Origin: Hydrogenothermaceae bacterium
Lineage (GTDB): Bacteria; Aquificota; Aquificia; Aquificales; Hydrogenothermaceae
NCBI GenBank assembly: GCA_027052485.1
Contig: JALUFA010000053.1
Coordinates: 1 to 16,138 of the forward strand
DNA length: 16,138 nt
Direction of reading: 5' to 3'
Positions 6,593 through 16,138 of the stretch are shown in pieces. The notes under the pieces were generated by a model. That model searched no databases. It saw nothing but the letters and a program-made list of their open reading frames with translations, and was not told where the DNA came from. Every line of letters starts with the position of its first letter. Positions within the stretch are counted from its first letter, which is position 1. The translations under genes and the position numbers were made by a program.

Positions 6593-6652
6593 TCAGTGTA
6601 GAAATATTTAAGATGAAGAAATCTTCTAATTTTGCAAAATGTGGAGGAGTTA

Positions 6653-7930
6653 ATGTTTAGCTTTTTTGCAAAACCATCTCAAAATATAACCAATGTTAGC
6701 ACAAAAGAAGATGCATACTTAAATCGGATAAAAACACTGCTTCCGAAAATAGCAATAAGCATATATCATAGTTCTTTAATATCTGGAGAAGGTTTTAAAA
6801 TAAAAAACAGGATAAAGCTATATGAAAAAGAGATAAAAAACATCGTAAAAGAGTCAAACGAAGTACTAGAGGCAATTAACAACCTAAAAGAAAACATCCA
6901 CAAAATCTACCAGTTTCAGGAAGAAGTTCAACAGCTAGTAAACAAAGGAAATGAATCTGTAGAAGAAACCATAAAAGTTATAAACTTTGCCGAAGAGGTT
7001 ATGGAAACCCTTGGCAAATCTACAGAAGACTTAAAGGAAGAGATAGACAGTATAGAAGACGTTCTAAAAATAATCCTTGATATTGCCAACCAAACAAACC
7101 TACTTGCTTTAAACGCAGCAATAGAAGCAGCAAGGGCTGGGGAGTATGGAAAAGGTTTTGCCGTTGTTGCAGATGAGGTTAGAAGCTTAGCAGAGAAAAC
7201 TTCCCAGAGTATAAACTCTATACGGGAAGTTATTAACCGCGTTATTGAAAACACAGACCAAACAATAAGAAAAGTACAAGAAGCAAAAGAAACCACATCA
7301 ACGTTAATAGACAATACAAAAGATATTTCCTACATCTTTAAAGACATAAAAGAGGGAAGCGATAAAGTCTCTGAAATGTTAAAACAGCTCAATGATGAAA
7401 CCACAAAAATATACGAGTTTGTAAATAACGTTATTCAACATATAAAAGAGCTAGAACAGGCCTTCCAAGAGATAATAAAAATTGGAGACAAGATTGCCGA
7501 TGATTCCAGAAAAAATCTAAGTGAGTATATTGACATCTGGAAAGAACTTGTAGAAGGTCTCCAAGGACTAGATATAGAGCTTTTAAAAAGAATAATAGAC
7601 CACGCGATATTTATGGATAACGTAGCCAAAGCTCTGGAAGGAAAGACAGATTGGAAACCAACAGACCATACCCAATGCGCTTTAGGAAAATGGTACTACT
7701 CCCAAGGAAAGCAAGAAATAGATAAATACGGAAAAGAAGCTTTAGAAATCTTTAACTCAATCGAAGAACCCCACGCCCGCCTTCACAGTTTTGGAATAAG
7801 AGCTATAGAAGCTGCACAGGAAGGTAAAGAAGAGGAAGCATACGAGTACGTTTCAAAAATGTATGAGTCTTCATATGAAATAGTTCAAAAACTGTTAGAC
7901 CTATATAATATCGTATCTCAACGACATTAA
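6653..7930 (+). CDS. Soluble methyl-accepting chemotaxis protein with C-terminal CZB domain
   Basis: A cytoplasmic chemoreceptor that would signal through CheW/CheA. From ATG 6653 it has 425 residues and no membrane helix or HAMP domain. A short N-terminal region of unclear fold leads into a long helical hairpin. The conserved signalling tip is [20 protein letters not shown] plus [20 protein letters not shown], at about 143-185. The C-terminus is a chemoreceptor zinc-binding (CZB) domain with candidate ligands H317 ([11 protein letters not shown]), C342 ([11 protein letters not shown]), H374 and H378 (EPHARLHSF). CZB domains in other bacteria sense hypochlorous acid or zinc state through the zinc-bound cysteine. 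An upstream TTG at 6632 is possible, but GGAGGAG at 6643-6649 points to 6653. It is monocistronic, with its own promoter and terminator. Confidence 0.92.
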
Positions 7931-8150: not shown

Positions 8151-8843
8151 GTGGATTTATTCCAACTAAGAGAACTACAAGCTTTAAATACACTTGTGTT
8201 TGAAACGCTAGGACAACCAGAAAAAGAGAGGGAGTTTAAGCTAAAAGCTTTAAAAAGATGGGGATTTGACCTTTTATTTGGTAAAAAGGATGGAGTGCAA
8301 ACGTTTTTTACAGCAGAAACAGGAAAAAGGGATGTGGGAGAATCATACGAAGAAGACGAAATAAAGTACGAAGTAGAAGAAATCATCCATGAACTTCCAA
8401 AAAACAAAAAGATATTTGCCCACATAGAGATGTTCCAAGGTAGGGCATATCTCATTGGGGAACTAAGAGAGGGAGAGGAGAACATTGAAATTCTACGCGT
8501 ACCAGCTGGAGCTGTTCTACTTGCATACTTTAAAAAACATAAACTACACCACTTAATAGAGGCGTTAAGAAACGTTGGAACGGCTACGGAGCTGGTGAAA
8601 CAGAGAGGTCAGGAAGGTAAACCTGTACCTTACGAACAGCTGCCAAACGTGGCTAGACGATTTTTAAGAGGGGCAAAAGACGTAGAAGAGGATGCAGGAT
8701 TTGGACGGGTGGCGCTATCTTACTGGGGAGAAAACAAAGACGGGGATGCAAGATTTAGAGTTTCATGGCTACTTCCAACAATAGCACTGTTTGACATTAA
8801 CATTGCAGAGAAGGCAGATAAACTACTGGCTGCCTTCAAGTAA
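8151..8843 (+). CDS. Unrecognised 230-residue cytoplasmic protein, first gene of the prefoldin operon
   Basis: I do not recognise this protein. It has 230 residues and no signal peptide, membrane helix or obvious catalytic motif. It is a charged, mixed alpha/beta sequence: a helical N-terminus ([20 protein letters not shown]), an acidic stretch around 68-85, a beta-rich middle ending [19 protein letters not shown] at about 115-133, then a basic helix-rich part with [20 protein letters not shown] and a hydrophobic C-terminal segment ([20 protein letters not shown]). The [13 protein letters not shown] stretch faintly echoes the VPSSVIENALKSA segment of the next protein; I do not take this as proof of homology. 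The GTG start at 8151 has GGAGGG at 8139-8144. The stop abuts the next gene (TAATG), so the two are translationally coupled and may work together. Confidence 0.85.
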
Positions 8844-8857
8844 TGGGGGAAGGGAAA

Positions 8858-9592
8858 ATGCTCCTTCTAAACTGGACTCCTTTTGTATTTAGCAGAAAGG
8901 GCTTTTTAAGAGACGAGGAAGGAAAACCTTACGTACCTTCCTCGGTTATAGAAAACGCCCTTAAATCTGCAGCAGTTTACTACTACATAAAAAAAGACAA
9001 AGAAATAGAAAATAAAGTAAAAAATTATCTCCTTAAAAAGGAATTAGACCCAAAGGAAGTCGTAGAAAAGGTTAGAGAGCTTGTCTTCAACAAGTACCCA
9101 ATATTTGAAAACCTAAAAATACAGGAAAAAATATACCTTAACCCTGAAAGAATAAAAGAAGAGTACATTGAAGTTTTCGATTTGAAAGAGTGGATAGATG
9201 TAAAAGGTTTTAAAACTGAAATCTATCAGGACACGTTAGAGATAGATATCCATATAGACAACTGGGAAAAGGTGAAGGCTATAGCCCACTCTTACGCAGA
9301 AGGACTGGCTCACATGGAAATGACAATGTTAAAAGACCACCCATTGGTGGACATTTTCTACAAACCTTTACTTACCGAGATGAAAAACTGGGAAGCACCT
9401 TTAAGAATAGGAATGTGGACTGAAAACAAGTTTAAAGGAAATCTACTGTTCTTCTGGAGAATAAAAGAAGTACGGGAAAAATTTTTAAAAGAGCATAAAT
9501 TAGATATTAGGCCTAGATACGTTTTATACCTGCCAAGAGAAAAACAAACAACAGGATGGGCTGAACTAAAAAAAGAAGGAGGTGCGGAGTAA
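8858..9592 (+). CDS. RAMP-like protein resembling Csm5 of type III CRISPR systems, without a CRISPR locus
   Basis: From ATG 8858 this is a 244-residue protein. An alternative ATG at 8843 overlaps the previous stop (TAATG) and would add MGEGK; 8858 is preferred because GGGGGAAGGG precedes it. Three segments recall Csm5/RAMP proteins: KPYVPSSVIENALKSAAVYY, like the Y-I-P-G-S-S-x-x-G-A-x-R segment; WEAPLRIGMWTENKF, like the LRxGxG glycine-rich loop but with the glycines eroded; and the C-terminal YLPREKQTTGWAELK, like the family's ending P-x-x-R...GWxxL. Csm5 binds the 3' end of the guide RNA in the Csm complex. No cas10, csm2-4, cas6 or repeat array is in the window, so a CRISPR role is doubtful. 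The resemblance is from memory of the family, not an alignment. Confidence 0.5.
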   Translation: MLLLNWTPFVFSRKGFLRDEEGKPYVPSSVIENALKSAAVYYYIKKDKEIENKVKNYLLKKELDPKEVVEKVRELVFNKYPIFENLKIQEKIYLNPERIKEEYIEVFDLKEWIDVKGFKTEIYQDTLEIDIHIDNWEKVKAIAHSYAEGLAHMEMTMLKDHPLVDIFYKPLLTEMKNWEAPLRIGMWTENKFKGNLLFFWRIKEVREKFLKEHKLDIRPRYVLYLPREKQTTGWAELKKEGGAE

Positions 9593-9593
9593 A

Positions 9594-10076
9594 ATGGCTA
9601 TTTTAGACTTTTCAACACCACCATCAACAATCTTTAACAGACTTTTAGAAGGTGGAGTGTTCCCATACTTCATCCATCTTATTGAAACTGCAGGGATGAA
9701 GGAAGAGCTTATAACAGGTGGACCTTTTACTGTATTTGTCCCTACAGATGAGGCAATAGACACAAGCGATCCAGAAAAATTAAAAGAATTTAAAGAAGCG
9801 TTAAAAGACCCTGTCAAAGCAAGAGAAGTGTTAAACAGATACATAATCAACGACACTTACCGTATACACCAGATTGCGGAAAAGGGAAGCATCCAGAGCA
9901 GAAATGGCTACGAGCTTAAATTTAAAGTAATTTGCCATATAAAAGATGAAGATAACCTAGATATGGATGTTGGTGGGGGTAAAGTGGACTTTTACATTAA
10001 TGATACTGCAAGGGTAACTCTTGCAAACGTACCGTGTTTAAACGGTGTAATTCACATTATTGACAAACTCTATTAA
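9594..10076 (+). CDS. Single-domain fasciclin (FAS1) protein without signal peptide
   Basis: The whole 160-residue protein is one FAS1 domain, a fold usually found in secreted adhesion proteins. The diagnostic first box is GGPFTVFVPTDEAI at about 41-54; then REVLNRYII, and the closing box LANVPCLNGVIHIIDKLY at the C-terminus. A signal peptide would be expected, but the N-terminus (MAILDFSTPPSTIFNRLL) is not one, so the protein should stay in the cytoplasm with its operon partners. ATG 9594 follows the previous stop by one base. GGAGG lies at 9578-9582 and GGAG at 9586-9589. A GTG at 9582 is in frame, but it falls inside the upstream gene and its ribosome-binding site. Confidence 0.88.
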   Translation: MAILDFSTPPSTIFNRLLEGGVFPYFIHLIETAGMKEELITGGPFTVFVPTDEAIDTSDPEKLKEFKEALKDPVKAREVLNRYIINDTYRIHQIAEKGSIQSRNGYELKFKVICHIKDEDNLDMDVGGGKVDFYINDTARVTLANVPCLNGVIHIIDKLY

Positions 10077-10105: not shown

Positions 10106-10567
10106 ATGGCAGAACAAAAAGAGCAAAAGGAACAAAAGCAAGAGAAAAAGCTCTCTATTGAAGAGCTCAACAAAGCACTAAAAGGCTATATAGCCCAAAT
10201 TGAAGCTTTAAGAGCTGAAATTGCTGTAATCAATGAAACTATCACTGAGTACAGAAACATCATCAAAACTCTCGCAGCTCTAAAACAACTTGGAAAAGGC
10301 AAAAACATCATTATTCCAGTTGGTTCAATTGCAGCTATCGAAGCTAAAATTGAAGACCCTGAAAAAGTTATCATCACTATCGGTTCAGGAATTTCTGCTG
10401 AACTCAAATACGATGAAGCTGTAGCTCAAATCGCCACACAAATCGCTGCACTAGAAGCATTAAGACAAACTCTTGAAGAAGCTATTGCAGAAGCTTATAT
10501 CCAAATTGAAGCAATTCTCCAAAAAACAAGAGAACTCGGTCAGGAAGAAGGAAAACAACAAAAATAG
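10106..10567 (+). CDS. Prefoldin alpha-class subunit, closest in character to filament-forming gamma-prefoldin
   Basis: Prefoldins are ATP-independent holdase chaperones built from coiled-coil arms on a beta-barrel. The 153-residue protein has the alpha-class layout: a hydrophilic tail (1-15, EQKEQKEQKQEKK), an N-terminal coiled coil from about 18 (YIAQIEALRAEIAVINETIT), the double beta-hairpin region GKNIIIPVGSIAAIEAKI then VIITIGSGISAELKYDEA (about 64-104), and a C-terminal coiled coil. As I remember it, the gamma-prefoldin of Methanocaldococcus jannaschii, which forms long filaments, shares the blocks AYIAQIExLRAEI, LVPVGSIA and ISAELxYEEA. Prefoldins are mainly archaeal and eukaryotic. 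AGGAGGT at 10092-10098 is a near-ideal ribosome-binding site, and Ile codons are 12 ATC, 11 ATT and 1 ATA, unlike the YfdX gene downstream. Both suggest high expression. Confidence 0.85.
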   Translation: MAEQKEQKEQKQEKKLSIEELNKALKGYIAQIEALRAEIAVINETITEYRNIIKTLAALKQLGKGKNIIIPVGSIAAIEAKIEDPEKVIITIGSGISAELKYDEAVAQIATQIAALEALRQTLEEAIAEAYIQIEAILQKTRELGQEEGKQQK

Positions 10568-10579
10568 TAAGGTGAAATC

Positions 10580-10765
10580 ATGGATAAAAAAACCATAGAA
10601 ACCACTTTAAAATGGCTTGAGACCCTCCCTTCTGGGAGGCGTCTTTTTTTTAACACAGGTGTTTTGATGATTGAAGTTACAAAAGAAGAAGCTATAGAAA
10701 AGCTAAAAGAACTACTCAAAGAGATAGAAGAGATGGAAAAACAGGAGGGAAAGGATGAAAAGTAA
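10580..10765 (+). CDS. Mini prefoldin-beta-like protein (61 residues)
   Basis: Residues 20-57, from RRLFFNTGVLMIEV through TKEEAIEKLKELLKEIEEMEKQE, resemble the prefoldin-beta hairpin and second helix (consensus V-Y-K-x-x-G-x-L-x-x-V-x-K-E-E-A-x-E-x-L...E-K-Q-E). A complete beta subunit has about 115-120 residues; here most of the N-terminal coiled-coil helix and part of the C-terminal one are absent. The start ATG 10580 lies 12 bases after the prefoldin-alpha stop, behind a weak site (AAGGTGA). An intrinsic terminator is encoded by codons 14-24. ATG 10667, behind AGGTG, is an alternative start giving 32 residues, but it would lose the first beta strand. The gene overlaps the YfdX gene by 11 bases. 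The beta assignment is by eye and moderately certain. Confidence 0.6.
   Translation: MDKKTIETTLKWLETLPSGRRLFFNTGVLMIEVTKEEAIEKLKELLKEIEEMEKQEGKDEK
10620..10651 (+). terminator. Intrinsic terminator inside the mini prefoldin-beta reading frame
   Basis: CCTCCC at 10624-10629 pairs with GGGAGG at 10634-10639 around a TTCT loop. After a one-base bulge (C10640), the stem extends through AGAC 10620-10623 with GTCT 10641-10644. T10644-T10651 is an eight-T run. This is the strongest terminator in the window. It lies 53 bases after the prefoldin-alpha stop, so it can end the message there. Ribosomes moving through codons 14-24 of the small gene would block the hairpin, which is the arrangement of a translation-dependent attenuator. 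The structure is seen; the regulation is inferred. Confidence 0.8.
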
Positions 10766-11639
10766 AGTATTGGCTCTCACATCAGCGGTGCTAATGACAG
10801 CTGGACTTTCCTTTGCTCAAGCTGAAAAAAGTGCAAATCAGTTAATCCAGTCTGCAGGTAAAAGGTCAGCACAAAGCATACAAGCACAGGAAGCCCATAA
10901 AATAATCCAAGAAGCTCTACAGGCTTACCAAGAAACCCAGCAGGTACTTATACTGCTTGCCCAAGGGAAAGTTCAAGAAGCAAAAAAACTTATGGAAGAT
11001 ATCAAAAAGAAATTACATCATCTAAAAACACTTCACCAAGAAAAACTCGCCAAACTGCCAATAAGTGTTGTTATCACTGAGATTGATGGAGTTGATGACA
11101 TTAAACTGGCAAAAGAAATACTAAAAAAAGCCAAAAAAGCTTGCCAGCAAAACGACATACCAACAGCAAGAGACCTCTTAGAACTTTTAAGAAACGAGAT
11201 AGACATTCAAACCCACTATCTTCCACTTGATATCTATACCAGAGCTGTAGAGCTAGCTTACCAGCTATTGGAAAAAGGTGATGTAAAAAATGCACTTGCA
11301 GCGTTAAACGTTGCTCTAGGTTCTATAGAGATTGAAGAAGTAATTATTCCAAAACCTATAGCAGAAGCTCTAATACTGGTTCAAGACGCTAAGAAAGTGT
11401 TTAAAGTAAACCCTAAAAAGGCAGAAAAACTCCTAGAAGAGGCTAAGCGAAAAATCAAACTGGCTCAAGTACTTGGATACATTAGAACGGAAAAAGAGAT
11501 TGAGCCTCTCATAAGAGAGATTGAGTCTCTTGAAAAACAAATCAAGAAAGAAACAGCTACTAAGTCTCTATTTGAATCCCTTGAAAAACACATCCAAAAA
11601 ATGCAAACAAAATCTACCCACACAAAAGAAAGACAGTAA
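10755..11639 (+). CDS. Secreted YfdX-family protein
   Basis: A 294-residue protein with a Sec signal peptide: MKSK, a hydrophobic core VLALTSAVLMTAGL, and cleavage probably after SFA (21) or AQA (23). The mature part is almost all helical. It carries the YfdX-family pattern of two related helical units: LILLAQGKVQEAKKLMEDI (about 71-89), then PLDIYTRAVELAYQLLEKG with VKNALAALNVALGSIEIEE (about 156-195). YfdX proteins are poorly understood stress-linked periplasmic proteins of enterobacteria and others. AGGAGGG at 10743-10749 supports ATG 10755, which lies inside the end of the mini prefoldin gene. Ile codon use (about 11 ATA of 29) is ordinary. The C-terminal tail (about 255-294) is a Lys-rich coiled coil. 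It is the last gene of the operon and the only one with an export signal. Confidence 0.75.
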   Translation: MKSKVLALTSAVLMTAGLSFAQAEKSANQLIQSAGKRSAQSIQAQEAHKIIQEALQAYQETQQVLILLAQGKVQEAKKLMEDIKKKLHHLKTLHQEKLAKLPISVVITEIDGVDDIKLAKEILKKAKKACQQNDIPTARDLLELLRNEIDIQTHYLPLDIYTRAVELAYQLLEKGDVKNALAALNVALGSIEIEEVIIPKPIAEALILVQDAKKVFKVNPKKAEKLLEEAKRKIKLAQVLGYIRTEKEIEPLIREIESLEKQIKKETATKSLFESLEKHIQKMQTKSTHTKERQ

Positions 11640-15255: not shown

Positions 15256-16138
15256 TTATCTCTTTATTTTTTCTTTGGCTAATTTATCTAACTCTTTTTT
15301 GATTATTTCTTCAAGTTCTTCAAATGCCACTTTACTTGAGTTTTCCATAGATTTAAGCATTTCTACAATCTGCTGGTCTATGATACCCTCATCAACGGCA
15401 CGTTTAATAACTTCTCTTACCATGTCGTGTACGTTTTTATGGTGTTTTGCAATGTCTTCAAGTATACCTTTGTCCTTGATAAGGTAGATAAGTTCTGAAG
15501 AAAACCATTTTCCAAAATTACACTCTGTTTCTGGAACCACCTCTTCTTTCTTGTGAAGGGCGATTGCTTCGTAAGCCTTAACCTTAAGTAAAATATGGTC
15601 AATTTTTCCAACGATAATTTTAATGATATAGTTAACTTTAGAAGTTTTCTCTTCAATTGTTTGAGCGTTGTTAACAATTTCCACAAGAGCAGCACCAAGA
15701 TTTCGTAAGGCTTTTACGTCTTCGTCTATTTTAAGGACAAATGTATCTGAAATTTTGTTTATGTCTGATGCTTCCTGTTTTAGCTTTTCAATGTTTGCTG
15801 CAACTTCTTCTGTAGCTTTTCTCGTTCTTTCTGCAAGGTTTCTAACCTCATCTGCAACAACGGCAAATCCTTTCCCGTGTTCTCCGGCCCTTGCAGCCTC
15901 TATTGCAGCGTTAAGAGCGAGGAGGTTTGTCTGGTCTGATATGTCTCTGATTAAAGAAATTACGTTCGTTATTTCTTCTGTACTTTTGTTTAACGTTTCT
16001 ACTACCTTCTTCAAATCTTTAGAGTAGTTCACAAGTTCTTCCATAGACTCAATAACGTCTTCACTGTACTTATGGGCTGATTCTGTCTTTTCTACATTTT
16101 TCTCATTAAGTTCTACAACTTCATCTAGCATTTCAGAA
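15256..16138 (-). CDS. Methyl-accepting chemotaxis protein with CZB domain, 5' end outside window
   Basis: C-terminal part (about 293 residues) of a second chemoreceptor. The frame is open to the right edge: codons for Ser-Glu precede the Met at 16131, so that Met is internal. The signalling tip [20 protein letters not shown] plus [20 protein letters not shown] is followed by a helical return arm and a CZB domain. Candidate zinc ligands are in [14 protein letters not shown] (His), [12 protein letters not shown] (Cys) and [10 protein letters not shown] (two His). Sensor and membrane parts, if any, lie beyond the window. It abuts the SDR gene, an unusual partner for a chemoreceptor. It shares the CZB design with the receptor at 6653, but the sequences outside the tip differ clearly. 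Confidence 0.92.

Follow-up and report, generated by a model that had tools for sequence, protein, structure and literature searches.

A bacterial gamma-prefoldin is encoded together with a small, single-hairpin beta-class prefoldin that may cap its filaments

The locus that we have analysed is located on contig JALUFA010000053.1 of assembly GCA_027052485.1, from a thermophilic Hydrogenothermaceae bacterium of the phylum Aquificota; the whole stretch of 16,138 nt is referred to here as the window. Two prefoldin genes lie next to each other on its forward strand, the gene of an alpha-class subunit, gamma-prefoldin (gPFD), and a 61-aa open reading frame (ORF) that we refer to as the "mini-beta". 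These genes, their structural elements and their neighbours are the following:

8151..8843, + strand: UPF0128 / TIGR00703 protein, a conserved neighbour that co-occurs with gPFD (profile matches, locus comparison)
8843..9592, + strand: RAMP-like protein, a conserved neighbour (PF03787 at 18.8 bits, below the cut-off of 22.1)
9582..10076, + strand: fasciclin-domain protein, encoded between the genes of the RAMP-like protein and of gPFD (PF02469)
10106..10567, + strand: gPFD, alpha-class, 153 aa (PF02996 and TIGR00293; 6vy1 as best match by sequence and by fold; tree)
10304..10408, + strand: beta-hairpin pair of gPFD, strands 67-72, 76-81, 87-93 and 96-101 (AlphaFold2 (AF2) secondary structure)
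10569..10575, + strand: AAGGTGA, a Shine-Dalgarno-like sequence ahead of the mini-beta (sequence inspection)
10580..10765, + strand: mini-beta, a 61-aa beta-class prefoldin with shortened arms (PF01920, AF2, Foldseek, conserved adjacency to gPFD)
10643..10678, + strand: the one beta-hairpin of the mini-beta, strands 22-25 and 30-33 (AF2)
10755..11639, + strand: YfdX-domain protein with a signal peptide as judged by eye (PF10938)

The gPFD ORF is preceded by a Shine-Dalgarno-like AGGAGG (by eye), its stop codon is separated from the mini-beta by 12 nt, and the last 11 nt of the mini-beta are shared with the YfdX-domain gene. The window also encodes a methyl-accepting chemotaxis-like protein (6632-7930), with a C-terminal CZB zinc-binding domain and no transmembrane stretch recognised by eye, and a second protein of this kind (15256-16131), judged by eye only.

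The ORF at 10106-10567 is a bacterial ortholog of gPFD, the filament chaperone of Methanocaldococcus jannaschii, and its family assignment is secure. It matches PF02996 (Prefoldin) with an E-value of 4e-24, above the curated cut-off, and TIGR00293 ("prefoldin subunit alpha") with 93.7 bits (cut-off 53.9); among solved structures it is closest to 6vy1, the filamentous prefoldin of M. jannaschii determined by cryo-EM (E 3e-30, 108 bits), while the ordinary archaeal alpha subunits follow at 43 bits (1fxk_C, the next after 6vy1) and 35 bits (2zdi_C). The AF2 model, taken from a chain joined to the mini-beta, begins with a long helix (residues 18-62), continues with a pair of hairpins made of four strands and ends in a second long helix that starts at residue 102; its top Foldseek match is again 6vy1_A (49% identity at 1.5 A, with a TM-score of 0.90 when normalised by the target). 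Among 5.8 billion proteins searched, 97 relatives have been found at E<=1e-5, with Persephonella, Aquifex, other Aquificota and Methanocaldococcus as the named sources; the Persephonella and Aquifex members are already carried by the databases as "prefoldin subunit alpha". The initial annotation had described this ORF as a gPFD homolog with an alpha-class layout in a bacterial host, and all of this is supported; each of the three sequence blocks that it had singled out as gPFD-like contains columns that are invariant over 24 aligned gPFDs.

The second ORF (10580-10765), which the initial annotation had overlooked, encodes a prefoldin of the beta class that has one hairpin and two shortened coiled-coil arms; its family assignment is also secure. 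Searched alone against PF01920, it scores 28.4 bits (cut-off 27.6), and in the six-frame search 24 bits, which is below the cut-off; it matches Pyrococcus prefoldin beta with an E-value of 1.5e-4. The family carries the signal as well: 25 of 28 mini-betas match PF01920 at E<=0.01, and the profile that is built from the 28 reaches the beta-class chains 3aei (1.2e-6), 2zdi_A (1.5e-6) and human prefoldin 2 (1.9e-5). The AF2 model from 23 sequences (mean pLDDT 92.3) has a helix at 3-15, the two strands of the hairpin and a helix at 35-60, and Foldseek places prefoldin beta chains at each of ranks 1 to 6; for five of these the TM-score to the query is 0.70-0.76, and the E-values are modest (0.002-0.03, none <=0.001). 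A single-sequence protein search has returned two relatives and a profile search 78; Methanocaldococcus was absent from the names displayed for these 78 matches, where only the 7992 candidates that share most words were scored. In the genome of the window (77% complete), there is no further PF01920 match at E<=0.001.

The lengths of the two arms vary among the families of the phylum, which we call f1 to f5, taking f1 as Hydrogenothermaceae and f5 as Desulfurobacteriaceae by inference. The mini-beta of the window has 19 residues before and 23 after the hairpin, next to ~52 and ~46 in the canonical chain 2zdi_A, as counted from the alignment. Similarly short arms occur in f1 (16-31 before and 12-28 after, measured in 20 of 21), f5 (19-22 and 9-14) and the Methanococci (19-22 and 12-17); the first arm is longer in f2 (60-64 and 14-16) and in the candidates from f4 (49-55 and 13-14), and f3 has 37-41 and 29-34. 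Three mini-betas from genomes named Thermaceae (112-114 aa), which fall outside the pattern measurement, have a long C-terminal stretch; by eye, ~70 residues follow the hairpin, possibly an extra domain. Short arms are therefore not universal, given the long ones in f2, f3, f4 and the Thermaceae-named genomes, and the constant part of the family is the one hairpin, together with at least one short arm in most families.

Comparison of coding sequences indicates that the mini-beta is a real gene under purifying selection. In 11 pairs that were picked to spread over the clades, three of them saturated, 161.5 of 1575 nonsynonymous and 219.5 of 405 synonymous sites differ, a pooled pN/pS of 0.19 from raw proportions. 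All defined dN/dS values (18 of 23 pairs, the other five being saturated) are below 0.5, with 0.08-0.25 for the pairs of Methanococci and the highest values, 0.44 and 0.47, for pairs within the genus of the window. A chance ORF is ruled out by this selection and by the linkage with gPFD that is described below; decay from a full-length beta gene to a pseudogene is ruled out by the selection and by the recurrence of the short length in many genomes.

The search for the mini-beta near other gPFD genes was conducted with phmmer and the 61-aa protein of the window alone. The ORFs searched, 7358 in number, were drawn only from gPFD loci (57 loci with 460 kb in total, gPFD itself being present in 56). 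It has returned 54 matches at E<0.01, of which 49 adjoin gPFD, four lie further downstream and one is found on a separate contig; with the window included, the mini-beta directly follows gPFD in 50 of 57 gPFD genomes, its start, measured from the last base of the gPFD stop codon, ranging from 32 nt upstream to 59 nt downstream. The four further downstream are those of f2 (Aquifex), 1.4-2.4 kb after gPFD on the same strand. In the genome with the separate match (G110), the mini-beta is located at the start of its contig and the contig that bears gPFD stops 52 nt past it, so this pair is probably split by the contig end. The two genomes of f4 (L124 and L125) have a divergent ORF of 81-88 aa at the position of the mini-beta; compared with the mini-beta of the window alone, that of L125 has an E-value of 0.1 and that of L124 is unlisted at E<=10, and both were joined to the family by an iterated profile, which is circular, so that their status as mini-betas is doubtful. 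The gPFDs of these two genomes are themselves divergent and located on a long branch.

Genome-wide, PF01920 exceeds its cut-off in 18 of the 136 genomes of the phylum, and the top match in all 18 is the mini-beta near gPFD; an additional listed match (G075) reaches the cut-off only when taken together with the neighbouring ones in its frame. Below the cut-off, the profile is unspecific, with matches at E<=0.1 in 129 of 136 genomes and in control bacteria as well.

The same pair of genes is found in the organism from which the filaments are known. One of the archaeal gPFDs of our set (L137) agrees with the chain of 6VY1 at each of its 147 residues, from which we take it to be that of M. jannaschii; its gene shares its last 20 nt, counting the stop codon, with a mini-beta of 54 aa that is preceded by GAGG and is matched by the sequence of the window alone with an E-value of 3e-7. 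All seven Methanococci with gPFD have a mini-beta, which in the other six starts 17-29 nt upstream of the last base of the gPFD stop codon, also with GAGG upstream. The two genes thus stay together in the phylum of the window, in three Thermaceae-named genomes and in seven Methanococci.

In total, gPFD has been found in 57 genomes. PF02996 exceeds its cut-off in 47 of the 136 Aquificota genomes (21 in f1, 4 in f2, 5 in f3, 2 in f4 and 15 in f5); at E<=0.001 there are 48, the last of which (G090) is a fragment of 19.5 bits and is not counted. A further seven belong to the 36 genomes of the phylum of Methanocaldococcus, where the gPFD profile scores 198-204 bits and the remaining matches 28-48 bits, and three to the 111 genomes of the phylum that holds the Thermaceae-named genomes, where they fall into a single family of 14 genomes. 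At least within Aquificota, the rarity in bacteria that the initial annotation had assumed does not hold.

The tree of 70 rows (56 gPFDs, with that of G110 left out from f3, and 14 PfdA sequences of Methanococci; 154 columns) separates the gPFDs from PfdA as one clade with 100/100 support, and each of f1 to f5 forms a clade; the identification of the ORF as an ordinary hexameric PfdA, which would have refuted the initial annotation, is ruled out by it. The seven gPFDs of Methanococci (support 87/79) have f3 as their sister group (97/95), inside the bacterial gPFDs, and the constraint of all bacterial gPFDs to one clade costs 5.2 log units and is rejected (p-AU 0.023). The acquisition from a thermophilic archaeon that had been proposed for this gPFD is not supported by this nesting; a transfer from bacteria to archaea fits better, because the Methanocaldococcus gPFDs are nested with f3 and the constraint is rejected. 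The reverse direction, in which gPFD would have passed from Aquificota to Methanocaldococcus, is held here with moderate confidence, since the root is on a very long branch, flagged by the program, and the constrained clade was named after the tree had been seen. The tree of the mini-betas (55 columns) is too short for the same comparison, rejecting neither Methanococci with f3 (p-AU 0.58) nor Methanococci with f5 (p-AU 0.44).

The surroundings of gPFD are also conserved, and the operon of its own that had been suggested for it gives way to a cluster with UPF0128, a RAMP-like protein and the second prefoldin gene. Of the 52 loci compared, 37 have a UPF0128 gene close to gPFD, 37 a gene of the RAMP-like family and 19 one of the YfdX-domain family; the fasciclin-domain gene is accessory, belonging to no family that is found at five loci or more, and no signal peptide is apparent by eye in its product. 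A membrane-anchored "IPxSPI" protein and a second membrane protein occur at 24 loci each, where they replace or join the YfdX-domain gene; the first 110 residues of one protein of each kind match no Pfam family over its cut-off. Across the 136 genomes, 45 have both gPFD and UPF0128, two gPFD only, two UPF0128 only and 87 neither (Fisher 5e-31, uncorrected for kinship); the two with gPFD only are 70% and 64% complete, and the two with UPF0128 only have partial matches. In the Methanococci, UPF0128 is found in 16 of 36 genomes and gPFD in 7 of 36; M. jannaschii has UPF0128 far from gPFD.

Thermosome matches over the cut-off are found in none of the 136 genomes (best score 68.7 vs 671 bits), and those below it are mostly ORFs of ~550 aa, which we read as GroEL; the window's own genome (77% complete) has no thermosome match. 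Since no thermosome exceeds the cut-off in these genomes, the gPFD system probably passes no clients to a group II chaperonin in this phylum.

Filaments of gPFD have been under study since 2007 and have been engineered as self-sufficient polymers, and in hexameric prefoldin a single beta hairpin closes the barrel that is begun by the alpha subunits (1FXK). According to PMC4895442, the beta-sheet regions X1 and X2 of M. jannaschii gPFD make the contacts of the filament, which grows via both, and the engineered cap TERM has a working X1 and a disabled X2, i.e. one live and one dead hairpin. Because TERM caps with one working hairpin and a beta hairpin closes the alpha barrel, a free beta hairpin that has no second face could be a natural cap, and we propose this role, or that of a length governor, for the mini-beta. 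In the proposed mechanism, gPFD would polymerise through its two hairpin faces, and the single hairpin of the mini-beta would occupy the face that is exposed at the end of the filament, as beta subunits do in closing the barrels of hexameric prefoldin; having no second face and little tentacle, the mini-beta would cap or limit the filaments and add no client-binding arms, so that the ratio of the two neighbouring products would set the filament length. The filament itself would act as a heat-stress holdase that works with no group II chaperonin.

We judge this reading as a whole, a two-gene filamentous prefoldin with a capping mini-beta and a holdase role under heat stress, to stand just short of an even chance; the capping role is the best-supported guess, about evenly balanced against all of its rivals together. 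The broader statement, that the mini-beta is the natural counterpart of TERM and sets the length of gPFD filaments even in M. jannaschii, that the bacteria operate it with no group II chaperonin and that Methanocaldococcus acquired it from Aquificota, is somewhat less probable. A single hairpin, which might join a filament, is predicted in the mini-beta by AF2. The filaments of M. jannaschii are given in PMC11117396 as up to ~500 nm in cells and up to ~5 um in vitro; this difference fits length control and also fits the confinement in a cell of ~1 um. A statement in the same source speaks against capping, in that gPFD is said there not to interact with the alpha or beta subunit, with no further specification of the beta; the formation of filaments by M. 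jannaschii gPFD alone counts against it as well. The AF2 model of a read-through fusion of gPFD and the mini-beta, a single chain with one gPFD and no dimer, has a pTM of 0.56 and does not place the mini-beta with confidence; eight of the nine stand-alone mini-beta rows were left out of its alignment, as MAFFT had aligned them with the gPFD part.

The pairing of the mini-beta gene with that of an alpha-class subunit, as in the alpha2beta4 prefoldin, and its beta-class hairpin and fold would also suit a closed complex, in which a gPFD dimer and four mini-betas would form a hexamer resembling prefoldin but standing on two long legs and four stubby ones, with filaments arising only when the mini-beta is scarce; that the genome of the window lacks a second PF01920 match, as noted above, points the same way. 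We regard this arrangement as the main rival of capping but as unlikely, because gPFD belongs to the filament-forming clade, far from PfdA, because M. jannaschii gPFD makes filaments by itself in the account given in PMC11117396, and because the short arms could hardly grip clients in the manner of normal beta tentacles. The mini-beta might instead be a nucleator, a side-binder or an adaptor, for example one that would connect the filament with UPF0128 or with a client, and would not cap at all. The co-occurrence of UPF0128 with gPFD, which extends to f3 where the two are on different contigs, and the long C-terminal stretch of the Thermaceae-named mini-betas are in favour of such a role, but UPF0128 is more widespread than gPFD in the Methanococci and the smallest mini-betas are merely a hairpin with short arms, and we consider it rather improbable.

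Far less plausible still is a stand-alone, homopolymeric bacterial gPFD of archaeal origin with an incidental small ORF behind it: the homology of gPFD agrees with it, as does the polymerisation of M. jannaschii gPFD alone in vitro (PMC11117396), but 55 of the 57 genomes have a mini-beta linked to their gPFD, the other two being doubtful, the mini-beta evolves under purifying selection, and the archaeal gPFDs lie inside the bacterial ones.

The core of the initial annotation holds and is extended: a bacterial gPFD is part of a two-gene system, the second member of which is also located beside the filament gene of M. jannaschii. The open-access papers that were searched make no mention of gPFD in bacteria or of a small protein resembling a beta subunit as its partner. 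If the mini-beta caps filaments, the role of gPFD and the control of the polymer in the cell could be tested in M. jannaschii, for which transformation is available (PMC11117396), and the use of gPFD in nanomaterials would profit from a length controller of 6-7 kDa that is natural and heat-stable.

Among known systems, M. jannaschii gPFD (6VY1) is the closest to the protein of the window, being its best match by sequence and by fold, sharing its clade and having a mini-beta gene behind it; the protein of the window differs in being bacterial, in being 49% identical over the Foldseek alignment and in being known here from its sequence and a model, and its mini-beta is separated from it by the 12-nt gap, whereas the two genes overlap by 20 nt in M. 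jannaschii. The archaeal hexameric prefoldin (PfdA2 PfdB4) likewise combines alpha-class and beta-class subunits with the same hairpin-on-coil folds, but the beta partner in the window lacks most of both coiled-coil arms, its alpha subunit belongs to a different clade, and a group II chaperonin over the cut-off is absent from the 136 genomes of its phylum. With the prefoldin beta subunits of PF01920 (2zdi_A and 1fxk_A), the mini-beta shares the one beta-hairpin between helices, with a Foldseek probability of 1.00 for both; it has 61 aa, compared to 117 (2zdi_A) and 107 (1fxk_A), and arms of 19 and 23 residues in the place of the long tentacle helices of 2zdi_A (~52 and ~46). The protein aq_754 of Aquifex aeolicus, which NCBI lists as a "prefoldin subunit" and UniRef as an "uncharacterized protein", is a mini-beta of f2, but it has 99 aa and a long N-terminal arm, and its gene follows gPFD at a distance of 2.4 kb, after four intervening genes. 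Lastly, TERM, as described in PMC4895442, offers the one working hairpin as the capping principle that is proposed here; TERM is a gPFD mutated in the laboratory, while the mini-beta is a natural, beta-class, putative cap.
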